A stretch of 21,756 nt of DNA from IMG/VR virus record IMGVR_UViG_3300003702_000494, positions 1 to 21,756 of that record. The stretch is one strand, 5' to 3'. The notes under the pieces were generated by a model, which worked only from the letters and a program-made list of their open reading frames with translations, made no database searches and was not told where the DNA came from. This DNA comes from a virus. The position numbers and the translations under genes were made by a program. Of this stretch, positions 1-17,934 are shown piece by piece; the stretch's first letter is position 1, and every line of letters begins with the position of its first letter.

Positions 1-427
1 GTTTTTATCTGCTCAAGCTCATCAATATTTTTCTGAGTGGAGAGAACTTGGTGTTGAAGTAACTAGAACAATTAAACGAGAAGGGCCTCCTGCTACGAAG
101 GCCAAAGTTATAATAAGAGCTGGGTATCATACAGACCTTGCTTCTATACATAGAGCGGCGTGGTCTTTTATAGCACCTTGGGATGTTGCTCGTGCGGCAG
201 TAATACATGATGTACTCTACGAAGCACTAAGAGAAAACAAAGCTGTATTTTCAAAAGAAAAAATAAAAAAGTTGAGAAAAAATGCTGATAGTGTTATGTT
301 AGAAGGTATGACCGCGGCCCAACCTACAGTACCAAATCTCAAAGTAAAAGTAGTATATAGAGTATTGAGAATTACAGGAGGAATGGCATTGAAACATTCT
401 TCTTATCGTGAACGACAAGGCTGGTAA
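1..427 (+). CDS. DUF1353 family protein, 5' end outside window
   Basis: The open frame starts before the window, and 141 codons are visible from base 2. The core reads TDLASIHRAAWSFIAPWD followed by AAVIHDVLYE, which matches the DUF1353 pattern (TD.ASIPR then A..HD.LY). DUF1353 proteins are small, mostly phage-encoded proteins of unknown biochemical role. The sequence ends in a basic tail (KHSSYRERQGW). The stop codon overlaps the next start as TAATG, so the two genes are probably translationally coupled. The missing N-terminus cannot be judged. The family call is from recognised motifs; no function is claimed. Confidence 0.75.
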   Translation, partial: FLSAQAHQYFSEWRELGVEVTRTIKREGPPATKAKVIIRAGYHTDLASIHRAAWSFIAPWDVARAAVIHDVLYEALRENKAVFSKEKIKKLRKNADSVMLEGMTAAQPTVPNLKVKVVYRVLRITGGMALKHSSYRERQGW

Positions 428-675
428 TGGGCTTTTTATTTTGGTTTGTTTTGCGATCAATGATAATGGGAGTTATAGGTAACTCTTTTTACAAATGGTT
501 TGCAACAACAAAAACAGGTAAATGGTTTGATGCGAAGATAGAAAAACTGTTAAATAAAGTCACCAATAAACATGACGAAACGCTAGCAAAAAGCAAACAG
601 CTAGAGATGTTTGTAGAAGAAGAAAAACTCCAGAAAGCACCAGTTAGGCGTCTAGATGGGGGTCCTGCTAAATAA
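427..675 (+). CDS. Small membrane-anchored protein, unknown
   Basis: This 82-residue protein has a hydrophobic N-terminus (about residues 2-20, MGFLFWFVLRSMIMGVIG), then a charged, probably helical segment (residues 33-70) and a basic end. It looks like a single-pass inner-membrane protein with a cytoplasmic tail. It starts in the TAATG overlap with the DUF1353 gene, and its 3' end overlaps the next gene by about 20 bases. The position suggests it belongs to the envelope operon that leads into csgF and csgG. I do not recognise a family. A holin accessory role is possible but nothing in the sequence shows it. Confidence 0.6.
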   Translation: MGFLFWFVLRSMIMGVIGNSFYKWFATTKTGKWFDAKIEKLLNKVTNKHDETLAKSKQLEMFVEEEKLQKAPVRRLDGGPAK

Positions 676-910
676 TTTGATAAATAGTTATGTGACAAAA
701 CTATTTACTAAACACCCTAAAGAAATAAATGAGACTTACTTGCAACATGGAATGCAATCTTTAAGATATAGTCTTACTTTTTTATTTTTATTTTTTGTTA
801 GTTTCATCCATGCTATATTTCCCTTTCTGTTAAAACAAACAGTAAGTGATGTCCTCCGTGAATTGAATAATCATGTCAACCGGAGACATATGCATGGCTC
901 CGAAACCTGA
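656..910 (+). CDS. DUF6356-like small membrane protein
   Basis: The 84-residue protein carries FTKHPKEINETYLQHG (about residues 17-32), a long hydrophobic stretch (about 38-60) containing HAIFPFLL, and a TVSDVLREL tail. An HP..-E.Y..H motif followed by a TM helix with HA..P and a Ser/Thr-Asp helix is the layout I associate with DUF6356 (capsule-biosynthesis-like, function unknown). The ATG at 656 lies inside the previous gene. A GTG at 692 is in the same frame and would skip the first 12 residues, so the start is uncertain. The C-terminus overlaps the next gene. The family call is tentative. Confidence 0.5.
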   Translation: MGVLLNNLINSYVTKLFTKHPKEINETYLQHGMQSLRYSLTFLFLFFVSFIHAIFPFLLKQTVSDVLRELNNHVNRRHMHGSET

Positions 911-1184
911 CTTAGTTATTCAACTTTTAGAACTAGGATTCTCTGCCGCAGCAGCAGTAGGGATGGGGTTCTTTATTATCCTATTAATCAAATACATCCT
1001 TGAGTCTGTTGTAGGACAGGCTAAGAGTTTGCATAGTATGATTACGGCACTGGATAATCGTGTACGCACAATGAACAATGATGTGATCCGTATTGATACT
1101 TTAATCTGCCAAGTTGTAGGTATAAGGCCGGACTTGGAAAGAATAGCTAGAACAGACGGACAGAAAGATGCAAGGAAAGATTAA
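894..1184 (+). CDS. Single-TM coiled-coil protein, paralogue of the next gene
   Basis: I chose the ATG at 894 because GGAG at 882-885 lies eight bases upstream; an in-frame ATG at 873 would add seven residues. The 96-residue protein has one membrane segment (about residues 16-37, rich in Ala, Gly, Ile and Leu) and then a heptad-like segment with ALDNRVRTMNNDVIRIDTL. The following gene has the same layout and a matching block (KLIDRVRMLDNDLIRLDQKL), so the two are tandem paralogues. The architecture, an N-terminal TM then a coiled coil, recalls BhlA/UviB-type holin-like proteins, but the similarity is only in layout. Its stop overlaps the next ATG at base 1184. Confidence 0.65.
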   Translation: MAPKPDLVIQLLELGFSAAAAVGMGFFIILLIKYILESVVGQAKSLHSMITALDNRVRTMNNDVIRIDTLICQVVGIRPDLERIARTDGQKDARKD

Positions 1185-1456
1185 TGGACTTAACAGAGTT
1201 TGTAAATCGTTTCGGCCTTCCAGTCGTAATAGCGGGAGGCCTTGGTTATTTCATTTATTTTATTTGGAAGTATGTCACCGCACAGATTAAAGTTAAACTT
1301 GGAGAAACCTTTACTGTATTGGTTAAGTTGATAGACCGAGTTAGAATGCTAGATAATGACCTTATTAGATTAGATCAGAAATTAAATGTTTTTATAGAAC
1401 TGTCAGAAGAACAAAAGTTAAAGAAGTTGGAGGAAATAGAACATGAAAAAAAGTAA
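1184..1456 (+). CDS. Single-TM coiled-coil protein, paralogue of the previous gene
   Basis: The 90-residue protein begins MDLTEFVNRFGLPVVIAGG, with one TM helix at about residues 11-31. A charged amphipathic helix follows, with DRVRMLDNDLIRLDQKL at about 51-67, and the tail is Lys/Glu-rich. Both this and the preceding gene keep the D.RVR..(D/N)ND.IR.D spacing after one TM, so they share ancestry and may form a hetero-oligomer in the inner membrane. The gene overlaps csgF by 14 bases and supplies the csgF ribosome binding site (GGAGG at 1429-1433). Function is unknown; a holin-like role or a curli-export accessory role are both guesses. Confidence 0.7.
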   Translation: MDLTEFVNRFGLPVVIAGGLGYFIYFIWKYVTAQIKVKLGETFTVLVKLIDRVRMLDNDLIRLDQKLNVFIELSEEQKLKKLEEIEHEKK

Positions 1457-1955
1457 TCTTTTATTATTGGCAGCTCTTGCTGTATGTGGAGTTTCCTCTG
1501 CATTTGCAGGCCAAATAAATTTTAAATTTCATTCACCTAGTTTTAGTGGTATAGGAACCAGCTCACATTATTTAACGATAGAGAACTTAGAAACAACACG
1601 CAAACAGGCCATCAAGAAAAAGGCCGAGGATGAGGCTAAGGCATTAGAATTGGAATTGGAATATGAATTAGCGAACACCCCCATAGAATTATTCCGTAAG
1701 AATTTAGAGTCACGATTCTACACCGCATTGGCAAAGAACATCATAGATAATGTGTTTGGTACAGACGGCACAAGACAAGATGGCGGCACAACGGTAATAG
1801 ATGGCTACACGATTACTTGGGCATCTACTGGTACAAACAACGATGCAGATGGTACAACACTGACCATCACAGATGCTAATGGTAATACTATCTATGATTA
1901 TACTATGCCTTTTCAAGAGAAGGAAGGTTGGGCTTGGGGAGATGAAGAAGGATGA
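1443..1955 (+). CDS. csgF: CsgF-like curli assembly protein
   Basis: CsgF is a secreted subunit that caps the CsgG pore and couples curli subunit export to nucleation at the cell surface. The 170-residue product has a clear signal peptide (MKKSNLLLLAALAVCGVSSA, cleavage near FA-G at residue 22). The conserved start of mature CsgF follows: GQINFKFHSPSFSGIGTSS, compared with GTMTFQFRNPNFGG in E. coli. The middle is a charged helix (about 50-80). The C-terminal half has the dG..I.w....tltitDa.GnTi pattern of the family. At 170 residues it is longer than E. coli CsgF (138), mainly because of the Lys/Glu helix. GGAGG sits nine bases before the ATG. The stop overlaps csgG as ATGA. Confidence 0.88.
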   Translation: MKKSNLLLLAALAVCGVSSAFAGQINFKFHSPSFSGIGTSSHYLTIENLETTRKQAIKKKAEDEAKALELELEYELANTPIELFRKNLESRFYTALAKNIIDNVFGTDGTRQDGGTTVIDGYTITWASTGTNNDADGTTLTITDANGNTIYDYTMPFQEKEGWAWGDEEG

Positions 1956-2968
1956 TACATAAACTGATAGCAATAGTAACTGTTGCTTTATTAGTATCGG
2001 GTTGTGCTTCTACTTTGGCTAGAACTATGAAGAACTTGGACCAAGTTCCAAGAATTCAAACAATGAATCATAGTATTCTAAAAGACCTAAGAGAACCAGA
2101 CCAGAATCCTATTATACTAGCAGTGTATGGTTTCACAGACCAGACCGGGCAACAGAAACCCGGCGGGGCCTATGCTGAGATGTCCAAGGCAGTAACACAA
2201 GGCTCACAACATTTACTCATCAAGGCTTTATTAGATGCCGGTGATGGTAAATGGTTTAGAGTATTAGAAAGAGACACACTACAAAGTCTATTACAAGAAC
2301 GTAAACTGATTAGAACCACAAGACAAATACAACACGGCGACAAGGCCAAACCTATCGGACCTATGTTGTATGCTGGTGCTTATCTTACAGGTGCCATCAC
2401 TGGGTATGATACTAACATACTGACCGGTGGTATTGGCGCTCGTTACTTAGGCATTGGTGCTAATGCAGAGTATCGTTTAGATGTGGTGACTGTAGTATTA
2501 AAACTTATCAATGTCACAAGTGGTGAAGTAGAACTGACCGCTATCGTAGAAAAGAGTATCGCTAGTGCCGGCATTCACGGTGATGTATTCCGATATCTTG
2601 ATACAGCTACTAAGTTGATAGAGGCAGAGGCAGGCGCAGCGACTAATGAACCAGTAGGCTATGCTGTAAGAAAAGCTATTGAAAAGGGAGTGGTTGAAAT
2701 AATTGTGATGGGTGAGGAGAAAGGACTTTGGAAGTATAAGTTTGATGCTGTGTTGGATACCGAACCCTTGGAAGATAATGTTGAGTGGGGATCTGTTGAG
2801 TTGTTTGAGTCGATAACAAGTGCTGGAGTTCCTGATAAAGTAAACCCCGAAGAGTTGAAAGAAATTTATGATAGTACAGATTTAGGACTTAAAATTCTTA
2901 AAGAGGTAGCGGATGAAGAAACTGATAAGCTGCATGATACTATGGTTAATTTTAGTCCCCACCAGTAA
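1952..2968 (+). CDS. csgG: CsgG-like outer-membrane curli secretion lipoprotein
   Basis: CsgG forms the nonameric outer-membrane channel of type VIII (curli) secretion. The product has a lipoprotein signal with lipobox LVSGC (Cys18). Family blocks appear in order: DQTGQQKP, WFRVLERDTLQSLLQERKLI, TGAITGYDTNILTGGIGARY followed by LGIGANAEYRLD, LINVTSGEV, VFRYLD and AATNEPVGYAVRKAIEKGV. These align closely with E. coli CsgG (IIGYESNVKSGGVGARYFGI, TSNEP). At 338 residues it exceeds the E. coli protein (277), through an acidic C-terminal extension of about 65 residues. The pore-constriction loop differs: E. coli YPASNF is here about GGAYAEM. The start overlaps csgF by four bases, and the last 56 bases overlap the curlin-like gene. 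Confidence 0.93.
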   Translation: MIHKLIAIVTVALLVSGCASTLARTMKNLDQVPRIQTMNHSILKDLREPDQNPIILAVYGFTDQTGQQKPGGAYAEMSKAVTQGSQHLLIKALLDAGDGKWFRVLERDTLQSLLQERKLIRTTRQIQHGDKAKPIGPMLYAGAYLTGAITGYDTNILTGGIGARYLGIGANAEYRLDVVTVVLKLINVTSGEVELTAIVEKSIASAGIHGDVFRYLDTATKLIEAEAGAATNEPVGYAVRKAIEKGVVEIIVMGEEKGLWKYKFDAVLDTEPLEDNVEWGSVELFESITSAGVPDKVNPEELKEIYDSTDLGLKILKEVADEETDKLHDTMVNFSPHQ

Positions 2969-4010
2969 TGCACACAATTTACTGTGGGGCGATTTTGATG
3001 ATCTCACCAACAGTACTATAATTATCAAACAGGCCTCTCCCCATACAGAAATGTATGGAACATCGTCTGGTAATGATTTTGTCATATCAGGCAACAATGT
3101 AATAGTAGATATTACTCAAGAGCAGTCAGGAACTATTAGTTTTATTAAAGGTAATTTTCAATGTAGTAATTGTTCTTATACTGCCTACATAGGAGGTAGC
3201 AATAATGGCTCTTACATTAAGACAACGTATCTACATACCACTTCTAGTTATCATCACCTTGATGTCGATATTGCTGGAACTGGCTCTAGTAATGTGGTAG
3301 TGGTAACTGATGCGGCCCACGATCATAGTAATACATCAGTTGAAGTTGATATTGTAGGCGGGTCTAATAACACAATAAGAAATAGAATTTACGGTACACG
3401 CCAGACAATGAAAACCTACATTGATGGTAGTAGTAATACCGTCCGTCTCCAGAATGAAGGTACAGGTGACTACACTACAGGACAGACCGAACTTGCCAAT
3501 TTTTCGGACATTACGGAATATAATAACTACTTACATATAACAGGTAGTAGTAATCAAGTTCAAGTTAAGGCAGTTAATACAGGTAGAAGTAATATTATTA
3601 TTACTGGAGATTCTAATAAGATATGTAAGTATGGTACTAGCTGTACCGATGCCAATTATATGGCACACATTTATGGGTTGATGTCTATAGATGTGAATGG
3701 CGACTCCAATTCAATAGGTGTTTATTCCATTACAACAGGTGATGAAATAAAAATAGACCTTGATGGAGATGGACATACTATTGATGTCCACCAAGAAGGC
3801 ACAAGCAACTATGCTGGCCTGAAAATATATGGCGAAGGCCTTTACAAAGTTACATACGACCTCAAGCAACGTGGGAATGATACCCATTCGGGCTGTATAA
3901 ACATTGCTGATTTGGGCGCTAATACTACATACACTTATGACACTAATACATCAAGTCATAGAAATATAACAAATCATACTGCCAATGCAACGGGGTGTCT
4001 AACAAATTGA
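2913..4010 (+). CDS. Secreted curlin-like repeat protein, candidate CsgG substrate
   Basis: The product is 365 residues with a signal peptide (MKKLISCMILWLILVPTSNA, mature from His21). The mature part is Asn/Ser/Thr/Gly-rich. It has irregular curlin-like units of the form G(S/D)(S/N)N.(I/V)....: GGSNNTIRNR, GSSNTVRLQNEGTG, GSSNQVQVKAVNTG, GDSNSIGVYSITTG and GHTIDVHQEGTSN. Such units stack as beta-solenoid or amyloid repeats in CsgA/CsgB. Six cysteines sit in CSNC (near residue 84), CKYGTSC, and the C-terminal pair SGC and TGC. The start is placed at 2913, inside csgG, because AGAGG lies about six bases upstream and the signal peptide begins there. It may be the exported subunit or nucleator. 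Repeats are more degenerate than in enterobacterial CsgA. Confidence 0.72.
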   Translation: MKKLISCMILWLILVPTSNAHNLLWGDFDDLTNSTIIIKQASPHTEMYGTSSGNDFVISGNNVIVDITQEQSGTISFIKGNFQCSNCSYTAYIGGSNNGSYIKTTYLHTTSSYHHLDVDIAGTGSSNVVVVTDAAHDHSNTSVEVDIVGGSNNTIRNRIYGTRQTMKTYIDGSSNTVRLQNEGTGDYTTGQTELANFSDITEYNNYLHITGSSNQVQVKAVNTGRSNIIITGDSNKICKYGTSCTDANYMAHIYGLMSIDVNGDSNSIGVYSITTGDEIKIDLDGDGHTIDVHQEGTSNYAGLKIYGEGLYKVTYDLKQRGNDTHSGCINIADLGANTTYTYDTNTSSHRNITNHTANATGCLTN

Positions 4011-6271
4011 TTCGCAATTTATTATGGGTACTCTTGCTTACCCCAACATTGGTTTTAGCAGGTGTAGGTAAGGTTGAACACAACGAAGGCCGCACCTGGA
4101 ATGAGAGATCAAATAAGACACAAAATATAGCTGAAGGCTATGATGTGTTGATGGATGATTTTTACCAGACAGGTGAAGATGGAAAGATTGGTATTATTTT
4201 TGAAGATGAAACATCGGTAACAGTCATCGAAAATTCTGAATTAATGATTGATGATTTTGTATATGATCCTGCAAATAATATTGGAAAGTTAGCCTTCAAT
4301 GTGACAGTTGGATCGTTTCGTTATGTTTCTGGCGCTATTGGAGCAAATAATGAACAGCGTGTAAAAATCACAACCCCCTCTGCTACAATAACTGTCCGTG
4401 GTACTACTCTTACAGGTAATGTTACACCTGAGGGAGTAACTACAGTGACGCTGTTGCGTGATAGAGATGGCGGCCTTGGTAAAGTTCAAGTCGCTAATAG
4501 GGCGGGAACAGTTTTATTAACCCAACCCTTTCACACAGTAACAGTATTGTCGCCGACGATTGCACCTCCCTTACCTATTATACCTTCTCCTTCTGCATTA
4601 GCTGGGATGAATTTGGTTTTAGAACCTATAATGAATGAACCTGTAGTCAGGAGAGAAGTCCGGAGAGAAGATCGTCAAGATACCGATGAGGAAGATGAAG
4701 CGGAAGAAGTGGAGGAAGATCCTGAGGACAAAGAATCTGAGGATAAAGAATCTGAGGTAGAAGAAGATGGACAAGAGAAAGAGGAAACTGATGGAGATAA
4801 AGAAACAGAAGGAGAAGAAACCACCGACGATAAAGGAGATGTGGAAGATGACGAAGGAGAAGTCGCTGAAGAGGATAGAGAAGGTGGAGACCAAACTGAA
4901 GAAGATAAAGGACAAGATGATGTTGAAATTACGGATAAGGAAGTTGAAGAAATTAGAGAAGAAACGTCAGAAGACGTATCAGATGAGTCCGATGGGCCAC
5001 AAGATTCCGGACCAGAAGAAATCACAGATGAACCAATTGAAGAAGTATCCGATGGAGATACGTCAGGAGAAATTGACGAAGTGGGCTCGGAAACGGACGA
5101 AGTTAGAGAAGTTGGGCCGGAGATAGTAGAAAGTGAGCCTGTGTTTGAAGAACCTGTTGAGACAGAACCATCAGAACCTGTCTTTGATGAGCCTACATTT
5201 GAAGAACCCACCTTCAATGAAGATACCTTGATGACTGATTCAAATATGTTTGATGATACTTCCGTATTTGAAAGTGATATGCCAATGAACGATACAGGTC
5301 CGGTGATGGATACTGGACCTGTATTTGAAACAGAAACAGTTGAGGTTGAAGTAGAGGTTATGGAAGTTGAGGTAGAAACTGTAGAAACTTGGGACGAGCC
5401 CGAAGTTGTAGAGGTTGTTGAAGTGTTTGATGAACCAGAAACAACAACACCCACATATGAATCCACAACTCCATATGTGCCTGTTACAACCACAACAGAG
5501 GACACATTCTATTATGAAGAAACAGAAACTACCACCTTTGCCGATATCTTTGATACGAACTTGACAGATTACACTGATTATGCTGATGAGACAGATACAA
5601 CATCAACCGATGACTGGATGGATGATACCACTACAACAGACACAACAGCTGATGACGAGGAATATTGGTGGGAAGAGGAAGAGGAAGAGGTAGACATTAC
5701 TATTTACGGAACTTATATAGGGTATTCTGAAACTACTTACGGCACCACGACTGCCGTTAGCTCATCAGAAGAAACATCTACCGTAACAAGTGGCACGGCA
5801 ACTACCGGCACCGTGGTATCAACAACAGATGGCACAGTCAGCTACACACCTGCCGGCACCCAAACTACCATTACAACCACAACTACATATAATCAGACAC
5901 AAACAGATACTGATTACATTTATTATTGGTATGACTCCTCATCTGCTGGCACCAATGTTTCTACAACCACCTTGGTCACAACAGGCACATCAACATCAAC
6001 TAGTAATACCGACGGCATACCAACAACGATATACATCACAACCTCCGACAATACTTATTACAACAACACTGCTTGTAGCACCAGTAACAGTACCTGTAAT
6101 GTGTATGAGCTCAATTATGGTAATGATAAAATAGATATTCATATCAACCCCAGCAACACTAGGTTGGTCATAGCAGGCAAGAAGAATAGTAGTGGCACGA
6201 TGGAGTCCCAAATAATAGGTACTACTTCAGGTCAGTCTAACAATATCGTTATCATCCAATACCAGCCGTGA
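3995..6271 (+). CDS. FecR-domain protein with long acidic and Thr-rich tail
   Basis: The start is a GTG at 3995, 16 bases inside the curlin-like gene; it yields a signal peptide (SNKLIRNLLWVLLLTPTLVLA). Residues about 45-170 form a FecR domain, a periplasmic signalling module: the lines DGKIGIIFEDETSVTVIENS and ITTPSATITVRGTTLTG are typical, the latter containing the VRGT hallmark. A very acidic stretch (about 220-420, Glu/Asp with few basic residues) follows, then Thr/Tyr/Asp-rich sequence with WWEEEEEEVD. The C-terminus holds two Cys (ACSTSNSTC) and units such as GQSNNIVIIQYQP that echo curlin repeats. FecR proteins are often encoded beside CHASE2 cyclases, as here (GTGA overlap). It may scaffold, display or sense the polymer. 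The low-complexity tail is not assignable. Confidence 0.78.
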   Translation: MSNKLIRNLLWVLLLTPTLVLAGVGKVEHNEGRTWNERSNKTQNIAEGYDVLMDDFYQTGEDGKIGIIFEDETSVTVIENSELMIDDFVYDPANNIGKLAFNVTVGSFRYVSGAIGANNEQRVKITTPSATITVRGTTLTGNVTPEGVTTVTLLRDRDGGLGKVQVANRAGTVLLTQPFHTVTVLSPTIAPPLPIIPSPSALAGMNLVLEPIMNEPVVRREVRREDRQDTDEEDEAEEVEEDPEDKESEDKESEVEEDGQEKEETDGDKETEGEETTDDKGDVEDDEGEVAEEDREGGDQTEEDKGQDDVEITDKEVEEIREETSEDVSDESDGPQDSGPEEITDEPIEEVSDGDTSGEIDEVGSETDEVREVGPEIVESEPVFEEPVETEPSEPVFDEPTFEEPTFNEDTLMTDSNMFDDTSVFESDMPMNDTGPVMDTGPVFETETVEVEVEVMEVEVETVETWDEPEVVEVVEVFDEPETTTPTYESTTPYVPVTTTTEDTFYYEETETTTFADIFDTNLTDYTDYADETDTTSTDDWMDDTTTTDTTADDEEYWWEEEEEEVDITIYGTYIGYSETTYGTTTAVSSSEETSTVTSGTATTGTVVSTTDGTVSYTPAGTQTTITTTTTYNQTQTDTDYIYYWYDSSSAGTNVSTTTLVTTGTSTSTSNTDGIPTTIYITTSDNTYYNNTACSTSNSTCNVYELNYGNDKIDIHINPSNTRLVIAGKKNSSGTMESQIIGTTSGQSNNIVIIQYQP

Positions 6272-8316
6272 CTAAGATACTAACATCATCCTGGCTGGTA
6301 TTGATTACATTATTGATACTTACTTCTATTCGTTATTGGGATCCTATTCCAGTACAAACCTTACGCCTAAAAAACTTTGACGGTTATCAAGCCCTACTTA
6401 ATAAAACGGTATCGGATAAAATTGTTCTTTATGATGTAGGTGAGAAAGAACTAAAGGAACATGGTCAATGGCCGTGGAAAAGAACAGTCATTGCACAGTT
6501 AGTTGCCGATCTATATAATGCTGGTGCTCGTCTTGTAGTTCTGAACATTCTATTCGCCGAAGAGGATCGTTTGGGTGGTGATGATGACTTAGTAGGTGTT
6601 CTGCAGCAAGTGCCCGTGGTGGGCGTCCAAGCCGCCTCTAGTCGTGCTATAGAAGGACAAGCTACACCTAGAGGCTTATCGTACAGTGGTAATCCTTTCC
6701 CCTATCTATACACATATAAGGGTGCAGTAAGAAACATCAAGCCCATTGCAGATGCACTCGCAGGCATAGGTATGGTAAGTACTGTGCCTGAGATAGATGG
6801 TGTGGTTCGTAGAGTGCCATTGTTTGTCCGTGTCGGCGAAAAGGTTATCTACCCATCACTACCGATGGAGATACTCCGAGTCCTTGTAGGTAGTAAATCA
6901 GCACAGATAAAGACAGAGGCCGCAGGCATCAGTAAGGTGAGAGTAAGAGGGTTCCCTATAGTCAATACAGATTCACATGCTCGTATATGGATTGACTATT
7001 CAACCAACATAGAAAGAAACGTAGATGTGAAGGGTAAGATAGTTCTAGTCGGGTTGACAGCTGAAGGATTGACACAGACAGTACCCACACCATTCGGGCC
7101 TAAAGATATACACGAGGTCAATGCCAAGACATTATCAACTATACTAACAGGCACATCTATACAACGATATGATTTTGCCAACTTGGCAGAGTTGTTATTG
7201 ATATTAGGGATCGGTATTCTTATTATAGTTATTGCACCAAGAGTGAGTGTGAAGTGGACTATTCCTGTGATGTTGTTGTTTGTTAGTGGGACAGCATATG
7301 GTGGCTTTTTTGCGTTTGTAGAAAGAAATGAGCTGTGGGATGTAAGTTATCCGTTGTTTGCTATATTGATACTCTATCTACAAGTGACATTCAATAACTT
7401 TGCTCGTGAATTTAGATTGAAACAACAGATAAAGAAACAGTTTGGTACATACTTATCACCTGCAATGGTAGTGATCTTACAAAAAAATCCAGAGCTGTTG
7501 AAGTTAGGAGGTGAGACTAAAGAACTGTCTATTTTATTTTGTGATATAAGAGGGTTCACACCTATCAGTGAACAGTACAAGACAGACCCACAAGGTTTAA
7601 CAAAACTTATCAATCGGTTTCTTACTCCCATGACAAATTTGATAATGAATAATCAAGGCACAATAGATAAATATATGGGAGACTGTATAATGGCTTTTTG
7701 GAATGCTCCTGTGGGAGTGATAGACCATAAGAAACGAGCAGTAAGCTCAGCTTTAGCTATGGTCGAAGGTTTAAAGAAACTTAATACAGAACTAGAAGAA
7801 GAAAATCAACTGCCTATTACTGTTGGTATAGGCATCAACACAGGTGAGGTCGTCGTGGGAAACATGGGAAGTACTAGTAGATTTGATTATTCAATTTTAG
7901 GAGATGCTGCTAATTTAGCTTCACGATTAGAAGGACAATCAAAAAGTTATGGTGTAACAATTATTTTGGGTGAAGAAACTGCTAAAGATATAGATGATGA
8001 ATATTTTTGTGTAGAACTTGATTCTATTGCAGTTAAAGGAAAGAAAGATGCGGTTCGTATCTATACAGCATTAAGTACGCAAAAATATATGTGGCATAAT
8101 ACTAATTGGGTTCACCTAGAACAACAACACGAAAAATTTTTAGTTTTTTATCGTAATCAAAAATGGATATTGGCAGAGAAGTGGGCTCAAGATTTGGAGA
8201 CAGCTTGGCCTATCATGTCTGTCTATTATTCTATAATGCTTGAGCGTATAGAGAAGTTTAAGAGTAATCCTCCTGGCAATGATTGGGATGGAGTATATCA
8301 TGCAACAACAAAATAA
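6268..8316 (+). CDS. CHASE2-domain class III adenylate cyclase
   Basis: This inner-membrane cyclase should make cAMP from ATP in response to a periplasmic signal. Its 682 residues start at a GTG that overlaps the FecR gene by four bases. TM1 is at about residues 6-23, and the periplasmic CHASE2 domain spans about 30-300 (QWPWKRTVIAQLVADLYNAG, then IGMVSTVPEIDGVVRRVP). Three TMs follow at about 307-375, then a cytoplasmic catalytic domain at about 415-600. Catalytic residues are all visible: metal ligands Asp426 (LFCDIRGFT) and Asp472 (KYMGDCIMAF), adenine-selecting Lys468 and Asp540 (RFDYSILGD), and transition-state Asn549 and Arg553 (NLASR). That points to ATP rather than GTP. Such enzymes are bacterial; one in a phage is unusual. 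Whether cAMP is the true product is inferred. Confidence 0.93.
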   Translation: MTKILTSSWLVLITLLILTSIRYWDPIPVQTLRLKNFDGYQALLNKTVSDKIVLYDVGEKELKEHGQWPWKRTVIAQLVADLYNAGARLVVLNILFAEEDRLGGDDDLVGVLQQVPVVGVQAASSRAIEGQATPRGLSYSGNPFPYLYTYKGAVRNIKPIADALAGIGMVSTVPEIDGVVRRVPLFVRVGEKVIYPSLPMEILRVLVGSKSAQIKTEAAGISKVRVRGFPIVNTDSHARIWIDYSTNIERNVDVKGKIVLVGLTAEGLTQTVPTPFGPKDIHEVNAKTLSTILTGTSIQRYDFANLAELLLILGIGILIIVIAPRVSVKWTIPVMLLFVSGTAYGGFFAFVERNELWDVSYPLFAILILYLQVTFNNFAREFRLKQQIKKQFGTYLSPAMVVILQKNPELLKLGGETKELSILFCDIRGFTPISEQYKTDPQGLTKLINRFLTPMTNLIMNNQGTIDKYMGDCIMAFWNAPVGVIDHKKRAVSSALAMVEGLKKLNTELEEENQLPITVGIGINTGEVVVGNMGSTSRFDYSILGDAANLASRLEGQSKSYGVTIILGEETAKDIDDEYFCVELDSIAVKGKKDAVRIYTALSTQKYMWHNTNWVHLEQQHEKFLVFYRNQKWILAEKWAQDLETAWPIMSVYYSIMLERIEKFKSNPPGNDWDGVYHATTK

Positions 8317-8373
8317 CTAAATAATAGAATTGTTATGGGAAGTATAATGTGGTAGATGATAGGAGAAAATATC

Positions 8374-8811
8374 ATGTTTACATTAGAAAGTACTTTGCCA
8401 TGGAAGAAGCAATCGGGCTTCACTTTGATAGAATTGATGATAGTTGTAGCTATCATAGGCATTCTTGCTGCGATAGCGGTGCCACAGTATAACACATACA
8501 TTACCAAATCCAAAGCATCAGAAGGATTAACATTAGCTAATGGGGCTAAACTAGCCGTTGCAGAATATCATTCGATGAATGGTGAAATGCCAGTTAATAA
8601 TGAACAAGCAGGTTGGGAATCTGTATCTGGAACTAGTGTAGGATCTGTTAATATAGGCGTTGATGGTGTTGTTACCGTAATATACAACGATAAATCTGGG
8701 TCTGTACTAAGAGGAAAAACATTAGAACTAACACCTACTGCTGCTGGTGCTATCAATTGGGCTTGTAAGGCCACGGATATCTCAAAGTATGTTAAGGGCT
8801 GTACAGAATAA
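8374..8811 (+). CDS. Type IV major-pilin-like prepilin
   Basis: The ATG at 8374 is chosen because AGGAGA (8361-8366) lies seven bases upstream; an in-frame ATG at 8356 lies before that site and would add only six residues. The leader of 15 residues ends in KKQSG, and prepilin peptidase would cut before [20 protein letters not shown], a canonical type IV pilin helix with Glu5. The globular part is short (145 residues in all), and two cysteines ([15 protein letters not shown]) close the usual C-terminal disulfide loop. It would be inserted in the host inner membrane and could join host pili or pseudopili, since no pilus machinery is seen here. The gene is preceded by a 57-base gap and is likely expressed separately from the cyclase operon. 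Confidence 0.9.
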
Positions 8812-8837
8812 TGCATCAATCTCGCTTCATAAAACAT

Positions 8838-8866
8838 TTGACATTGTGATGTAGTTCATGTATAAT
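8838..8866 (+). promoter_or_regulatory. Perfect sigma70-type promoter upstream of primase
   Basis: TTGACA at 8838-8843 and TATAAT at 8861-8866 are separated by exactly 17 bases, so both hexamers and the spacer match the bacterial housekeeping consensus. Transcription would start near 8873, which is where the primase frame's GTG lies. This implies very early expression by host RNA polymerase of the primase and reductase genes. Two further promoters of the same quality lie at 15704 and 19511. Confidence 0.85.
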
Positions 8867-8872
8867 GAATGA

Positions 8873-9844
8873 GTGGTCTATATTGATTTAAAGTTTATTA
8901 TGATGTTGTCACCTCGTCTTGGTAAGTTCAAGAAGGTTCGTGATAATCTATTTAATTTCCGATGCCCCTACTGTGGTGACTCTCAGAAGTCTCACAGTAA
9001 GGCTCGGGGTTATTTTTATCGGAAGAAAAATGATTTTTTTTATCGGTGTCATAACTGTGGGAAAGGAACCACATTTGGCAAAGTATTAGAATATATTGAT
9101 CCAGATTCATATAAAGCTTATGTCATGGAACGATATACAAAAAATGAAATTCAAGAACCTGAGTTTAAATTTGATGCTCCTAAATTTAAAAAGAGAGATC
9201 CAAAACTGAAGGATTTGATTTCTATAAATAAACTTAACGGCGATCATCCCGCCCTAGAAATTCTAAAGAAAAGACAAATTCCAGAAAAACATTACGACAA
9301 ATTTTTCCTGTGTCATAAATTTTTTAGTTGGGCAAATATACCTTCTCTTGTTCCACGAAGGGAAGAACATCCTAGATTGGTGATTCCGTTTTATGACGAA
9401 AATGGAAAAGTTTTTGCTGCTCAAGGCAGAGCTTTTGGTAAGGAGCAACCGAAGTACTTAACAATTAAGTTTGAAGATAGACCAAAAATATTTGGTCTTG
9501 ATCGGGCCGATCTTACTGAACGAGTTTATGTAGTAGAGGGTCCGATAGATTCTCTGTTTTTAGAAAATAGTTTAGCGGTTGCAGGTTCTGATTTTAGAGA
9601 TTTGCCACCATGTGATACGACGATAATAATGGATAACGAACCAAGGTCAAAAGAAATAATAGATAAAATGGAAAAGCTGATTGATAAACAATATGAACTT
9701 GTGATTTGGCCTGATTCTATTCCCCAAAAAGATATTAACGACATGGTCCTAGGTGGTCACCAGGACATTCAAACAACAATAGACAACAACACTTTTTCTG
9801 GGTTGCAAGCTAAAATGCGTCTTGCGGCCTGGAAGCGAATTTAA
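8873..9844 (+). CDS. DNA primase, T4 gp61-like
   Basis: The primase makes RNA primers for lagging-strand synthesis together with a replicative helicase. The N-terminal zinc finger is CPYCGDS (about residue 31) with CHNCGKG (about residue 59) and the conserved ARGYFYRKKNDFFYRCHNCG block between. A TOPRIM domain follows in the second half, with VYVVEGPIDSLFLENS and TTIIMDNEPRS supplying its acidic residues. The length of 323 residues fits T4 gp61 (342). Related proteins begin M.YIDYKYI, which favours the GTG at 8873 (VYIDLKFIMM). That start coincides with the predicted transcription start, so the message may be leaderless; ATG codons at 8900 and 8903 are alternatives without a clear ribosome binding site. 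The 3' end is near the nrdJ ribosome binding site. Confidence 0.9.
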   Translation: MVYIDLKFIMMLSPRLGKFKKVRDNLFNFRCPYCGDSQKSHSKARGYFYRKKNDFFYRCHNCGKGTTFGKVLEYIDPDSYKAYVMERYTKNEIQEPEFKFDAPKFKKRDPKLKDLISINKLNGDHPALEILKKRQIPEKHYDKFFLCHKFFSWANIPSLVPRREEHPRLVIPFYDENGKVFAAQGRAFGKEQPKYLTIKFEDRPKIFGLDRADLTERVYVVEGPIDSLFLENSLAVAGSDFRDLPPCDTTIIMDNEPRSKEIIDKMEKLIDKQYELVIWPDSIPQKDINDMVLGGHQDIQTTIDNNTFSGLQAKMRLAAWKRI

Positions 9845-14041: not shown

Positions 14042-14524
14042 GTGGAACGATATAAAAATGTTTTATTACGGTGGTGGTTTCTGTTTTGTGTGCAGGGATC
14101 AATAGGGATTGTAGCATATTACTTTGGGTTTTTTCACCATCTAGTAGAAAAAGATCCAACTCGTTTAGGTTTTATAATACTAACTATTCTTATACTAACT
14201 ACTCTATGGTTAGGTAAAAAAGTATATTCGTTTAGAAAAGATATACCAGCTAAACCAATTAAAGAACTTGCTGTTGGTTGGTTTATTGCAGAAACTTGTT
14301 TAGTGTTAGGACTTGTTGGTACTGTGACTGGATTTATATTAATGCTTAGTGGTGCATTTATAGATTTAGATGTTAGTGATGTAGTGTCTATACAAGCTGC
14401 CTTGGTTAAAATGTCTTTAGGTATGTCTACTGCTCTTTATACTACTCTTATGGGATTGTTATGTTCCCTTGCTATTAAGGTCCAACTTGTCAATATAGAA
14501 AGACAACTTGAAAAATGCATATAG
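14042..14524 (+). CDS. MotA/TolQ/ExbB-like proton channel subunit
   Basis: The start is a GTG five bases after AAGGTGA, whose TGA is the previous stop. The 160-residue protein has TM helices at about residues 12-30, 42-58, 82-104 and 124-147. The third and fourth carry the family's channel-lining pattern: ETCLVLGLVGTVTGFILML (about 84-102) and LGMSTALYTTLMGLLCSLA (about 126-144). In ExbB, TolQ and MotA these two helices, with Thr residues, form the inner ring around the partner's Asp helix and convert proton flow to motion. It is shorter than TolQ (230) and lacks the large cytoplasmic loop. The partner gene starts inside its last ten bases. Confidence 0.82.
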   Translation: MERYKNVLLRWWFLFCVQGSIGIVAYYFGFFHHLVEKDPTRLGFIILTILILTTLWLGKKVYSFRKDIPAKPIKELAVGWFIAETCLVLGLVGTVTGFILMLSGAFIDLDVSDVVSIQAALVKMSLGMSTALYTTLMGLLCSLAIKVQLVNIERQLEKCI

Positions 14525-15213
14525 GTAGATATGTTTCTAGTACCGGGTTTACAGATTTATTATTTAATATAGTAGTAGGTCTGGCCTTTATGTTTGTCTT
14601 GGCTTTTATTCTTATTAATCCGATTACGAAAAAACATGACGTAGAAGAAAAATCTGATTATCTTATAATTTTAACTTGGGATGATAAGTCAAAAGATGAT
14701 ATAGATATTTGGGTTCAAGATCCTCTTTCTAATATAGTTTCATTTAGAAATAGAGGCACAGGGTTTATGCATTTAGACCGAGATGATTTAGGAACACGAA
14801 ATGATATCATTTATTTACCAGATGGAACTAGAAAGATCATTGAAAGAAACCGAGAAGTAGTTTCTTTGCGAGGAACAGTAGAAGGTGAGTATCTAGTTAA
14901 TGCTCATATTTATGATACTACATCTATTGAAAATGATTATATTGATGGTAAAAATTATCCTAAGAAACTTGATATAAACATAAAGGTGGAGTTAATACAA
15001 GTAAATCCTTATAAGTTGGTTACGTTTACAAAAATGCTTGGGAAACATCGAGGTCAAGAGTTTACAGCGTTTAGGTTTACATTAGATGCGAAAGGAAAGA
15101 TTACAAAGTTGAGTAATGAACGTAAATCTATTATTGCAACTAGAACGTATAGTAATTTAAGTGGGGGAGAAGCAACAGAACAAGCTAAGATATTCTGGGG
15201 GGAAGCCTGGTAA
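14515..15213 (+). CDS. TolR/ExbD-like partner with large periplasmic domain
   Basis: This 232-residue protein has one N-terminal TM (about residues 12-34), preceded by Asp14 in TGFTDLLFNIVVGLAFMFVL. The Asp followed by a hydrophobic helix ending in F.F is the signature of the ExbD/TolR/MotB proton-relay helix. After the membrane is a domain with DDIDIWVQDPLSN and FMHLDRDDLG (about 62-95), an Asp-rich, possibly calcium-binding beta layout. The C-terminal part is basic and stranded. No OmpA-like peptidoglycan motif was seen. It overlaps the channel gene by ten bases and touches the next gene (TAATG), so the three form one operon. The pairing supports a true ExbB/ExbD-like complex; the load on the motor is unknown. 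Confidence 0.75.
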   Translation: MHIGRYVSSTGFTDLLFNIVVGLAFMFVLAFILINPITKKHDVEEKSDYLIILTWDDKSKDDIDIWVQDPLSNIVSFRNRGTGFMHLDRDDLGTRNDIIYLPDGTRKIIERNREVVSLRGTVEGEYLVNAHIYDTTSIENDYIDGKNYPKKLDINIKVELIQVNPYKLVTFTKMLGKHRGQEFTAFRFTLDAKGKITKLSNERKSIIATRTYSNLSGGEATEQAKIFWGEAW

Positions 15214-15695
15214 TGGAACAACTTGTTTATTTAAGTATTATTTTTATTGTCATGTTATGTTTGTGGACAATTATAGCCTACCCTAAGAATTATCTCTTTA
15301 AGGCTATTTTTATACCTTTGGTGTTAATAGTTTCGATATCAATAGGGGTGACATACAAGGCACTATTAGGTTATCCGACAGACAGTGAAGCGGGAGGGTA
15401 TCAAGTTTATCACTATTTTATACCAGATCAACAAAATAAAGTTATCTATGTTTTATTAACACGGGTGGGAGAAAGTAAACCTAGGCTATATGCTTATCCT
15501 TGGAATAAAGATTTGTTAGAGAGCCTTAAAAAGGCTGAAGAAAAACGAGGGCAAACCGTTAAGGTTGTTGGTGAATTTAGGAACCCTAAGAAAAAAGATG
15601 GAAAGTTATTGGATACAGGAAGAATGTTATTTTATATGTTACCTCCACAGGTTTGGTTACCTAAAACTAAAGATAATTCTGAAGAAGATCAGTAA
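15213..15695 (+). CDS. Two-TM protein, third member of the channel operon
   Basis: The 160-residue product has TM helices at about residues 4-22 and 29-48 with a short loop between. A soluble domain of about 110 residues follows: YQVYHYFIPDQQNKVIYVLL, then GESKPRLYAYPWNKDLLESL and a basic FRNPKKKDGK stretch. It starts in the stop codon of the TolR-like gene (TAATG), which argues for co-production with the channel pair. I do not recognise a family. With both termini on the same side, the soluble domain could sit in the cytoplasm, but the Lys residues leave orientation open. It ends nine bases before the next promoter. Confidence 0.7.
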   Translation: MEQLVYLSIIFIVMLCLWTIIAYPKNYLFKAIFIPLVLIVSISIGVTYKALLGYPTDSEAGGYQVYHYFIPDQQNKVIYVLLTRVGESKPRLYAYPWNKDLLESLKKAEEKRGQTVKVVGEFRNPKKKDGKLLDTGRMLFYMLPPQVWLPKTKDNSEEDQ

Positions 15696-16461: not shown

Positions 16462-16874
16462 AAGATAAAATGGCTAAGGTTCGGGCGGCCAAGAAGCCGG
16501 CTGAATATAAGAATATACATCCTGCCGTTAAAGATTTAGATGATGACCATCCGGCTAGTCTTAAAATTGTTAAAGAATGGGAACGTCACAATAGAACTTT
16601 AATAAAAGAGTTGAGATATAAATGGCGTAGAATGGAGAAAGGAAAAGAAAAGGATAAAGTACAAAGAGAAATAAGAAATCGTGAAGATTACCTTAATAGT
16701 ATTAAAACGTATTTAGGAACAGCAGTATGGCGTGATTTATTTTGGGGTAAGGATATGGAGAATAAAACACATTTTGTTTGTTTGGCTACGGCTTATGATG
16801 TTGACGGTATTCAGAAAAAAACTCCACGAACTCGATACACTAGAAGACTTTTTATAGAAGATAATGTGGTATGA
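16443..16874 (+). CDS. Conserved-looking basic phage protein, unknown
   Basis: The 143-residue product starts MADSYIEDKMAKVRAAKKPA. It has a DDDHPASLKIVKEWERHNRT block and a long charged helix (about 55-85, WRRMEKGKEKDKVQREIRNR), and ends with a strand-rich part (ENKTHFVCLATAYDVDG, then RTRYTRRLFIEDNVV). It is soluble with no signal peptide. The start overlaps the glutaredoxin-like gene by 19 bases and the end overlaps kdsA by 11, so it is translated as part of this operon. I do not recognise a domain. The basic helix could bind nucleic acid. Confidence 0.65.
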   Translation: MADSYIEDKMAKVRAAKKPAEYKNIHPAVKDLDDDHPASLKIVKEWERHNRTLIKELRYKWRRMEKGKEKDKVQREIRNREDYLNSIKTYLGTAVWRDLFWGKDMENKTHFVCLATAYDVDGIQKKTPRTRYTRRLFIEDNVV

Positions 16875-17934
16875 TAAGTTAAAAAATTCAAGGTTTAATT
16901 TAATAGCAGGACCTTGCGTATTAGAAAGCGAACAACACGCTTTTGATATGTCAGGTGCTATTAAAGATATTTGTAATGATTTAAATATAAATTTTATTTA
17001 TAAAACATCATTTGATAAAGCGAATAGAACTAGTAAAGATAGTTATAGAGGTGTCATTGGTGAAGTGAAAGTACATATGTACCGTGTAGAATTGGCTAAT
17101 GAAAGTTTTGGTAAGATTAAAAAACAAATTGGATGTGAAATACTAACAGATGTTCACGAAAGTTGGCAGCCCGTTCTTTTACCTACTATAGATATTTTTC
17201 AGATACCCGCTTTTCTATGTAGACAAACCGATTTGATAGTTGCATGTGCTGAAACAGGAAAGCCTACTAACATAAAGAAGGGACAGTTTACATCTCCTGA
17301 GTCTATGGTATGGGCTGTTGAAAAACATGGTGGGGATGTGATGTTGACTGAACGTGGAACATTTTTTGGTTATGGTAGACTAGTGGTAGATATGGCTGGG
17401 TTGATTGTAATGAGAAAATATGCTCCTGTGATATTTGATGCAACCCATAGTGTTCAACAGCCAACAGGCAAAACTACTAAAGGTAATCGACTTGTAGCAC
17501 CATTTTTAGCACGGGCCGCATTGGCAGTTGGGGTAGATGGTTTGTTTATGGAAGTGCATGATGATCCAGATAACGCTCCGTCTGATGGTCCGAATATGAT
17601 ACGATTAAAAGATTTACAAGGTATCTTAGAGACCTTATTAGAATATGCTACACTCACGAAACAGGCGGAACAAGGTTCTATTTTAGGTTCGCATTCTCCA
17701 TTCTATATGAATACTAACAGCAATTATATAGATGAGTATAGGAGACAAAAGCCTCTAGAAGAATATACGATAGAGGAATATAAGTTTGATCCACCAGAAA
17801 GCTTTACTAAAGATGCAGGTCATGTGGCCGGACAAGTTGAAGAAGATCATTCAAATGCCAGCTGGCATAGCCGCACCGGCGGCGGTGGCTTCGGTCCAAT
17901 CTTCGGACCCACAGACGAAACTAACGATGACTAG
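16864..17934 (+). CDS. kdsA: KDO-8-phosphate synthase, metal-dependent type, with extension
   Basis: KdsA joins phosphoenolpyruvate and arabinose 5-phosphate to make KDO-8-phosphate for lipopolysaccharide cores. Family blocks run in order: NLIAGPCVLESEQHAFDMSG, YKTSFDKANRTS, LTDVHESWQ, IPAFLCRQTDL, NIKKGQF, LTERGTFFGYGRLVVDM, FDATHSVQQP and FMEVHDDPDNAPSDGP. The metal ligands Cys18, His195, Glu230 and Asp241 are present (Aquifex: Cys11, His185, Glu222, Asp233), so this is the metal-requiring class; E. coli has Asn at the Cys site. At 356 residues it carries about 80 extra C-terminal residues, ending in a Gly-rich tail (RTGGGGFGPIFGPTDETND). No other KDO gene is near. The last stop base is the first base of the tRNA. 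Confidence 0.93.
   Translation: MWYDKLKNSRFNLIAGPCVLESEQHAFDMSGAIKDICNDLNINFIYKTSFDKANRTSKDSYRGVIGEVKVHMYRVELANESFGKIKKQIGCEILTDVHESWQPVLLPTIDIFQIPAFLCRQTDLIVACAETGKPTNIKKGQFTSPESMVWAVEKHGGDVMLTERGTFFGYGRLVVDMAGLIVMRKYAPVIFDATHSVQQPTGKTTKGNRLVAPFLARAALAVGVDGLFMEVHDDPDNAPSDGPNMIRLKDLQGILETLLEYATLTKQAEQGSILGSHSPFYMNTNSNYIDEYRRQKPLEEYTIEEYKFDPPESFTKDAGHVAGQVEEDHSNASWHSRTGGGGFGPIFGPTDETNDD

Follow-up and report, generated by a model that had tools for sequence, protein, structure and literature searches.

A curli-type gene cassette with FecR and CHASE2 cyclase genes in a viral fragment: a candidate adhesive fiber with its own envelope sensor

The virus record IMGVR_UViG_3300003702_000494 was analyzed over positions 1 to 21,756 (hereafter the window), a 21.8 kb fragment that also encodes a phage primase, a ribonucleotide reductase and an exonuclease. 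On its plus strand, positions 1443–8316 hold a run of five genes encoding CsgF, CsgG, a curlin-like protein, a FecR-domain protein and a CHASE2 cyclase, neighbors in this run overlapping by 4–56 bases (Table 1). An earlier note, made from the sequence alone, had described five overlapping genes in this order; its coordinates and order are exact, and the Pfam domains agree, with the calls for CsgF, CsgG, FecR, CHASE2 and Guanylate_cyc all exceeding curated cut-offs. The window is a member, with variant features, of a phage module that has already been published. Our preferred reading, which we hold at slightly better than even confidence, is that these genes encode a curli-like (type VIII) adhesive fiber with its own exporter, together with an envelope sensor in which FecR would signal through CHASE2 to cyclic adenosine monophosphate (cAMP).

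According to this model, the genes would be co-expressed, and CsgG and CsgF would form an outer-membrane pore through which the curlin-repeat protein would be exported, polymerizing to an adhesive fiber on the infected cell. The FecR protein would be kept in the periplasm by a domain of signaling or anchoring type, and its C-terminal strand would pair with curlin, such that FecR could report, anchor or nucleate the fiber. FecR would then relay this state to the cyclase in the inner membrane, through the CHASE2 domain of that enzyme, and the cAMP produced would adjust host physiology. Adhesion would gain specificity in those relatives whose second curlin has a head of binding type. The benefit to the phage may be aggregation of new hosts or exclusion of competitors.

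Table 1 Features of the window, all on the plus strand, with the support for each assignment.
Feature	Position	Strand	Support
t1, single-span membrane protein, 103 aa, conserved C-terminal coil, DGxxDARKD-type end	873..1184	+	phrog_18771 6.2e-28; hydropathy; alignment A2
t2, single-span membrane protein, 90 aa, t1 paralogue	1184..1456	+	phrog_18771 5.4e-28; hydropathy
CsgF, signal peptide	1443..1955	+	Pfam CsgF 5.7e-13, above cut-off
CsgG outer-membrane secretion pore, lipoprotein signal LVSGC, C-terminal extension	1952..2968	+	Pfam CsgG 6e-49
Secreted curlin-repeat protein, sole curlin of the window	2913..4010	+	profile A3 vs PDB; fold model
FecR-domain protein, 758 aa, GTG start, signal peptide, curlin-like C-terminal strand	3995..6271	+	Pfam FecR 1.5e-7; phrog_37870 1e-39
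FecR domain proper, aa 57–154	4163..4456	+	Pfam
Curlin-like C-terminal strand of FecR, last 16 aa, ending SNNIVIIQYQP	6221..6268	+	tail motif
CHASE2 periplasmic sensor, membrane spans, class III adenylyl cyclase domain	6268..8316, GTG start	+	Pfam CHASE2 7.3e-40, Guanylate_cyc 5.5e-23
Type IVa pilin	8356..8811	+	Pfam Pilin 3.9e-19, N_methyl 8.1e-12; PDB type 4 pilin 1ay2 1.5e-19
Perfect sigma-70 consensus TTGACA-17-TATAAT, between pilin and primase gene	8838..8866	+	only 12/12 match

Two exporter components of a type VIII secretion system, the CsgG pore lipoprotein and CsgF, are present by Pfam, and CsgG also matches solved CsgG structures in the PDB (8.5e-44) and the NCBIfam CsgG model (2.9e-48, under the equivalog cut-off). 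The fiber subunit of such a system is represented by the curlin-like protein, identified by an alignment profile and by predicted fold. The profile, A3, comprises 17 sequences (the window and 16 relatives), 6 of which, the window not among them, match the Pfam curlin repeat at 0.01 or better, and it retrieves the solved curlins 8c50 (1.8e-12) and 8enq (3.1e-5) from the PDB. The window protein is modeled as a beta-solenoid, for which the VIA comparison ranks the Pontibacter curlin 8c50 first (Z 21.9, 259 residues, root-mean-square deviation (rmsd) 9.1), with other beta-helices starting from Z 16.9; this margin is useful but must be read with care at so high an rmsd. With Foldseek alone, the model was not matched to curlins in particular (8c50 E 4.3). 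A simple hydropathy scan gave N-terminal peaks for CsgF, CsgG, FecR and the cyclase and left the curlin-like protein below threshold, though by eye its N-terminus MKKLISCMILWLILVPTSNA reads as a signal peptide. The signal peptides, CsgG/CsgF and the curlin repeats are consistent with export and display on the cell surface. Two side observations concern the pore gene. In the closest relative, contig L172, CsgG is 75% identical to that of the window and adjacent cassette genes are 93–100% identical, for which local recombination in the pore gene is a possible explanation. A 1.5 kb record in the phage collection, OR851715.1, named as a Salmonella phage, also matches CsgG, and this match is possibly host DNA.

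The fourth gene may provide a link between fiber and sensor. Among viral FecR proteins the FecR domain is similar and the sequence downstream of it varies, and in the window the downstream part begins as a long linker with 45–57% Asp/Glu in residues 241–360, followed by 37–48% Ser/Thr in residues 481–720. Nearly all of the proteins then end in a short motif, defined as hydrophobic-x-hydrophobic-x-Gln within the last 16 residues. A stricter form, N.[hydrophobic].[hydrophobic].Q near the end, was found in 18/59; the definition was relaxed after inspection of the tails, and 84 new sequences served as the test. The relaxed motif occurs in 56/59 viral FecR proteins versus 25/743 other open reading frames (ORFs) of at least 150 aa in the first set, and in 79/84 versus 21/1107 in the new sequences. 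Bacterial FecR proteins, excluding one probable phage contig discussed below, carry it in 1/11 cases. The final Gln is invariant in an alignment of 24 chosen FecR proteins, and in 130 tails the commonest distances to a preceding similar strand are 21 residues (63 occurrences) and 22 residues (22 occurrences), close to the length of a curlin repeat. When the last 70 FecR residues were compared with a curlin profile, 15/144 matched at E ≤ 0.01 and 117/144 at E ≤ 1; among controls (n = 144 each), shuffled tails gave 0 at E ≤ 0.01 and 23 at E ≤ 1, and at the same two thresholds one other FecR segment gave 0 and 42 and a second gave 0 and 12. The same motif stands at the very end of 20/55 curlins upstream of FecR and 10/27 downstream of it, and is absent from the window curlin.

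Structural prediction adds to this picture, with the fold taken from a model of the FecR protein of relative L253 and not from that of the window itself. The model (predicted local distance difference test score (pLDDT) 80.6, predicted template modeling score (pTM) 0.56) renders the tail as six strands at residues 322–380 with a period of 20–23 residues and a block pLDDT of 70–88. Its FecR domain is closest to the PupR cell-surface signaling domain (Z 15.8, 134 residues, rmsd 2.5), followed by a Parabacteroides putative anti-sigma factor (Z 14.8 and 14.5) and by 5ix9, a "Cell surface anchoring domain" (Z 11.1, 74/76 residues, rmsd 2.1); the row after 5ix9 in this comparison falls to Z 4.9. The FecR alignment profile also matches 5ix9 (0.0022), there named antifreeze protein, which we take to be the anchoring part of a giant adhesin that binds ice. 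From these resemblances, FecR may tether the fiber to the cyclase. A fuller version of this idea, possible if doubtful, is that FecR acts as a tether and sensor in one: a periplasmic domain of anchoring or signaling type would be fused, with a flexible linker between, to a curlin repeat by which it would join or nucleate the fiber, and would let the phage read fiber export and loading and convert them to cAMP via CHASE2. If true, this would be a phage-evolved sensor of fiber state, for which the bacterial curli loci examined gave no counterpart. The available published text was not found to mention the curlin-like FecR tail, the anchoring-type resemblance of the FecR domain, the binding heads of the second curlin, a non-kinase identity of the upstream "histidine kinase" or the added pilin.

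Could the pore instead be a route by which larger nutrients or iron carriers are taken up in the course of infection, FecR acting as an iron-state regulator? Uptake has been proposed in PMC7029224 and PMC9599517, as far as the available parts of those papers go. At E ≤ 0.1, Pfam recognizes PF04773 alone in the window FecR, with no N-terminal anti-sigma domain, and the protein begins with a signal peptide; for these two reasons it is not of the FecI/FecR type. Uptake would also leave the curlins and their heads unexplained, and we regard it as highly unlikely.

On the output side of the proposed sensor, the cyclase matches phrog_35576 over its full length (1.2e-191), and Pfam places CHASE2 at aa 14–319, between membrane spans indicated by hydropathy peaks at 1–22 and 301–351. 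All six class III catalytic positions are in place in the window (D426, K468, D472, D546, N549 and R553), which we take to be the two metal-binding aspartates, the Lys/Asp pair that selects adenine and the Asn/Arg pair that stabilizes the transition state. In a first set of viral cyclases, these positions are invariant in 81/81, except N549 (80/81). In a second set (n = 83, window included), the metal aspartates and Lys are conserved in 83/83, Arg in 81/81 and the selector Asp in 80/81; by alignment, two proteins end before the last three positions, which reduces n to 81 there. A cAMP response fits this complete catalytic site. Together with the signal peptides and the CsgG lipobox, the complete site was among the features listed in the earlier note that were recovered here.

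Linkage of these genes was examined in viral relatives, of which 80 loci were kept from a cyclase scan and 80 from a CsgG scan, with a few contigs common to both; each scan yielded at least 600 candidates, and the cassette is thus common in viral contigs. Gene order is conserved in these relatives. Among the CsgG loci flanked by at least 4 kb upstream and at least 6.5 kb downstream, FecR and the cyclase were found somewhere in the locus in 29/29, and a pair of small membrane proteins (t1 and t2 in the window) in 23/29. Over all 80 CsgG loci, many of them ended by a contig edge, CsgF was present in 79, curlin in 74, FecR in 64, the cyclase in 55 and the small pair in 48. The earlier note had treated the five genes as one working system, an idea said to fail if relatives lacked the cyclase and FecR; that part stands as linkage, the flanked relatives having both throughout. 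A search of phage genomes for the same order, as that note had proposed, found it in HTVC008M, in Melnitz and in viral contigs. Two further observations bear on how the cassette evolves. Between the window and L253, primase and ribonucleotide reductase are 69% and 81% identical and the genes from CsgF to the cyclase 32–45%, as if the cassette had been swapped or evolved faster than the backbone. A subgroup, L173–L188, has complete FecR proteins of 714–727 aa, shorter cyclases (538–591 aa) that often lie on the opposite strand, and no small pair in the locus.

Bacterial loci give a different result. In the best 80 among the cyclase matches listed (flanks up to 10 kb, several contigs short), a FecR relative was found in 12/80, or 11/79 without L084, and in six of them (L101, L124, L134, L145, L147 and L151) FecR lies upstream on the same strand within 370 bases. 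Curli genes were found in only one of these 80 loci, L084, where the gene order is that of the phages; this 32 kb contig, from a Caulobacteraceae assembly, is probably of phage origin. CsgF was found in 2 of 40 genomes searched from the same loci, both with a phage-type cassette (L335 and L336); L084/L335 (Caulobacteraceae) and L110/L336 (Flavobacteriaceae) are probably phage contigs binned into metagenome-assembled genomes (MAGs). A sample of 385 alphaproteobacterial genomes contained 6 CsgF matches. Five of these lie in curli loci (L330–L334, 17.5–18 kb) with curlin, CsgG and CsgF, in which FecR and the cyclase were not found, FecR having been sought by a viral profile that a remote FecR could escape; the sixth match, below cut-off, was viewed as a 3.2 kb locus. 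A bacterial operon that could serve as a ready-made source of the cassette was not found, the curli and FecR-CHASE2 halves being separate in the bacterial loci examined. This separation is what one would expect if the curli genes and the FecR-CHASE2 pair were merely neighbors and not one system, a reading that we consider extremely unlikely in view of the 29/29 linkage, the overlaps of 4–56 bases and the FecR tail. If the FecR tail does couple the fiber to cAMP, it would explain why FecR and the cyclase occur in 29/29 flanked phage CsgG loci versus 0/5 bacterial ones, and would offer a route to understanding why marine phages spend several kilobases on curli.

What would such a fiber do? In the window, the FecR and cyclase genes overlap by 4 bases and the second curlin is absent. 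Where relatives have a second curlin between these two genes, a head domain precedes its curlin repeats in some of them. Among 26 chosen, mostly longer second curlins, repeats were detected in 16/26 and the heads include PA14 (3), F5/8 type C (2), NedA-like galactose-binding (2) and GLEYA (1), counts that may partly refer to the same proteins. The HTVC008M second curlin has both PA14 (2.7e-6) and Curlin_rpt (5.2e-8). PA14-headed examples of curlin type also occur at L042:8684-9988 and L082:7598-8920, and F5/8C or GLEYA heads occur elsewhere. Domains of the PA14, F5/8C and GLEYA types are typical of binding modules, and because the second-curlin heads are of this kind, adhesion is favored over a bare pore.

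A bare pore is the core of another hypothesis, in which CsgG/CsgF is repurposed for lysis timing, forming a gated outer-membrane hole whose opening would depolarize the cell or trigger lysins. This was proposed for Melnitz in the part of PMC9004378 available, and the single-span membrane proteins directly upstream, with a weak YvrJ hint (2/11 t1 members, best E 0.13), could be taken in its favor. A lysis pore, however, needs no curlin, which is present in 74/80 CsgG loci, and needs neither second-curlin heads nor a FecR tail. CsgG is moreover an outer-membrane pore, and opening of the cytoplasmic membrane would require another agent. We therefore rate lysis timing as quite unlikely. A further possibility accepts the fiber and assigns it a role in excluding competing phages by masking the infected cell surface, with cAMP and the pilin bringing further surface changes. 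Exclusion is suggested in the available text of PMC9599517, and two surface-related genes of the window, those for the pilin and for 3-deoxy-8-phosphooctulonate (KDO-8-P) synthase, are in keeping with it. Exclusion alone leaves the binding heads unexplained, and as the sole role of the fiber it appears unlikely.

Several observations weigh against an adhesive fiber read by a FecR-CHASE2 sensor. The Curlin_rpt match of the window protein alone (0.051) is under the Pfam cut-off, and for this reason its identity as a curlin rests on relatives. The beta-solenoid model of the same protein is of low confidence (mean pLDDT 61.8). As a curlin, the FecR tail is short and weak by sequence comparison, and only 3/175 full-length FecR ORFs reach the curlin profile at i-E ≤ 10. 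The viral relatives share ancestry, and the tail counts thus represent conservation and not many independent events. The transition-state Asn is replaced by Ser in 21/81 second-set cyclases (e.g., L253:14742-16829), a group in which the remaining catalytic residues are conserved. Pfam scans of 30 window proteins (E ≤ 0.05 or 0.1) gave no match to CsgE or CsgC, with some small ORFs outside the scan and the window being a fragment. Finally, Melnitz cultures are described without clumping in the available part of PMC9004378.

The earlier note had taken the five-gene set as new, and this claim falls: HTVC008M and Melnitz carry the set with a second curlin, and it was described in 2022 in PMC9599517, as seen in the available text. 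The genes gp014–gp019 of HTVC008M and gp99–gp104 of Melnitz encode CsgF, CsgG, curlin, FecR, curlin and cyclase, and gp011–gp019 and gp97–gp104 give the full order, in which two t genes precede CsgF. According to the accessible portions of PMC9599517, the viral module contains FecR, adenylate cyclase, curlin repeats and a "histidine kinase", is abundant and moves between phage families; viral curli-gene transcripts are found in metatranscriptomes, and CsgE and CsgC are reported absent from phage modules. The same portions hold no demonstration of fibers, export or cAMP for these phages. In the parts of the other papers at hand, PMC7029224 covers CsgF/CsgG and gives CsgE as not essential, PMC7029224 and PMC9004378 discuss CsgF/CsgG with sibling-capture and lysis hypotheses, and PMC9636769 mentions csgGF in sediment viruses. 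No further paper on the joint set was found in a search that mostly left subscription journals outside.

The window shares with the pelagiphage type VIII system of PMC9599517, as described in its available text, the order CsgF, CsgG, curlin, FecR and cyclase and the linked small upstream genes. It differs in having no second curlin (frequent, not universal there), a FecR of 758 aa whose linker is long and acidic, a pilin gene after the cyclase and upstream genes without a recognized kinase domain. Relative to HTVC008M and Melnitz, cyclase and CsgG are 38–45% identical, and those phages have the second curlin and no match to the pilin. The curli operons of E. coli and Alphaproteobacteria share CsgG, CsgF and curlin repeats with the window, whereas FecR and the CHASE2 cyclase were not detected in the five alphaproteobacterial loci. 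Conversely, the FecR-CHASE2 pairs of Thalassospira and of Burkholderia (PMC5192318, available part) resemble the window in that a periplasmic FecR adjoins a CHASE2 sensor enzyme. Curli genes were not found alongside the Thalassospira pairs, and in Burkholderia, where the pair lies in a biofilm operon, a kinase takes the place of the cyclase (PMC5192318). Precedent for the proposed output comes from Sinorhizobium, whose CHASE2 cyclases raise cAMP via an outer-membrane barrel protein that senses an external protein (PMC13001267, citing earlier work, in the portion available).

The unit is longer than first noted, beginning further upstream with the 103 and 90 aa membrane proteins t1 and t2, which overlap the five-gene run. 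The t2 protein is 100% identical in L172. Among 50,697 phage records, the t family was matched in HTVC008M and four Melnitz strains only, and in HTVC008M the genes before csgF encode two 93-residue proteins of this family and a 41-residue ORF. As histidine kinases the pair was rejected, the proteins being too small and without kinase domains: Pfam gave no HisKA or HATPase match in the window t2, the HTVC008M pair or 11 t1 members. The "histidine kinase" of PMC9599517 is most likely this type of pair, judging by its position in HTVC008M, a member of the published set; if so, the kinase label is not supported. A cassette gene was found in 23/23 t loci whose flanks extend at least 5 kb each way and in 35/37 with 3 kb (L284 and L289 without). 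Six flanked CsgG loci have no t genes, and t1 and t2 are 70% and 68% identical to their L253 counterparts versus 32–45% for the cassette genes; for these two reasons t1 and t2 may be phage backbone genes.

At the other end, the pilin gene begins 39 bases past the cyclase and encodes a class III signal (GFTLIE) and a pilin domain. The prepilin motif and pilin domain are as in type IVa pilins, and no pilus assembly genes were recognized among the scanned window proteins. In the first viral set, the pilin profile matched the window alone; a loose prepilin pattern found one 44 aa ORF in L010, judged spurious, and a stricter one found zero in the second set. The phage collection had no match at E ≤ 1e-3, and L253, the nearest full-order relative, has no pilin between cyclase and primase; L172 stops inside FecR and is uninformative on this point. 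Membership of the pilin in the system is thus not supported, the gene being seen in this window only among the viral loci examined. Within the class to which a Lysobacteraceae MAG belongs, 258/274 genomes have related pilins (best 58% identity, 117 bits), as do 51/289 genomes of an alphaproteobacterial sample (best 60.8 bits), which hints at a gammaproteobacterial pilin source or host.

Promoter motifs were also considered. The perfect sigma-70 consensus beyond the pilin gene possibly marks the far edge of the unit; sigma-70-like sites in positions 1–9000 number 27, against 27.9 expected. The T4-type late promoter motif TATAAATA occurs at 4 sites, which is chance level, with zero inside the cassette. 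Elsewhere in the window, positions 14042–15695 encode a MotA/TolQ/ExbB-family protein (Pfam 6.5e-6), a one-span protein whose long soluble part has no Pfam match and a two-span protein, possibly a phage proton-driven motor set. The KDO-8-P synthase lies at 16864–17934 (NCBIfam NF003543, 320.6 bits versus a cut-off of 242), has a C-terminal extension, and suggests modification of lipopolysaccharide by the phage.

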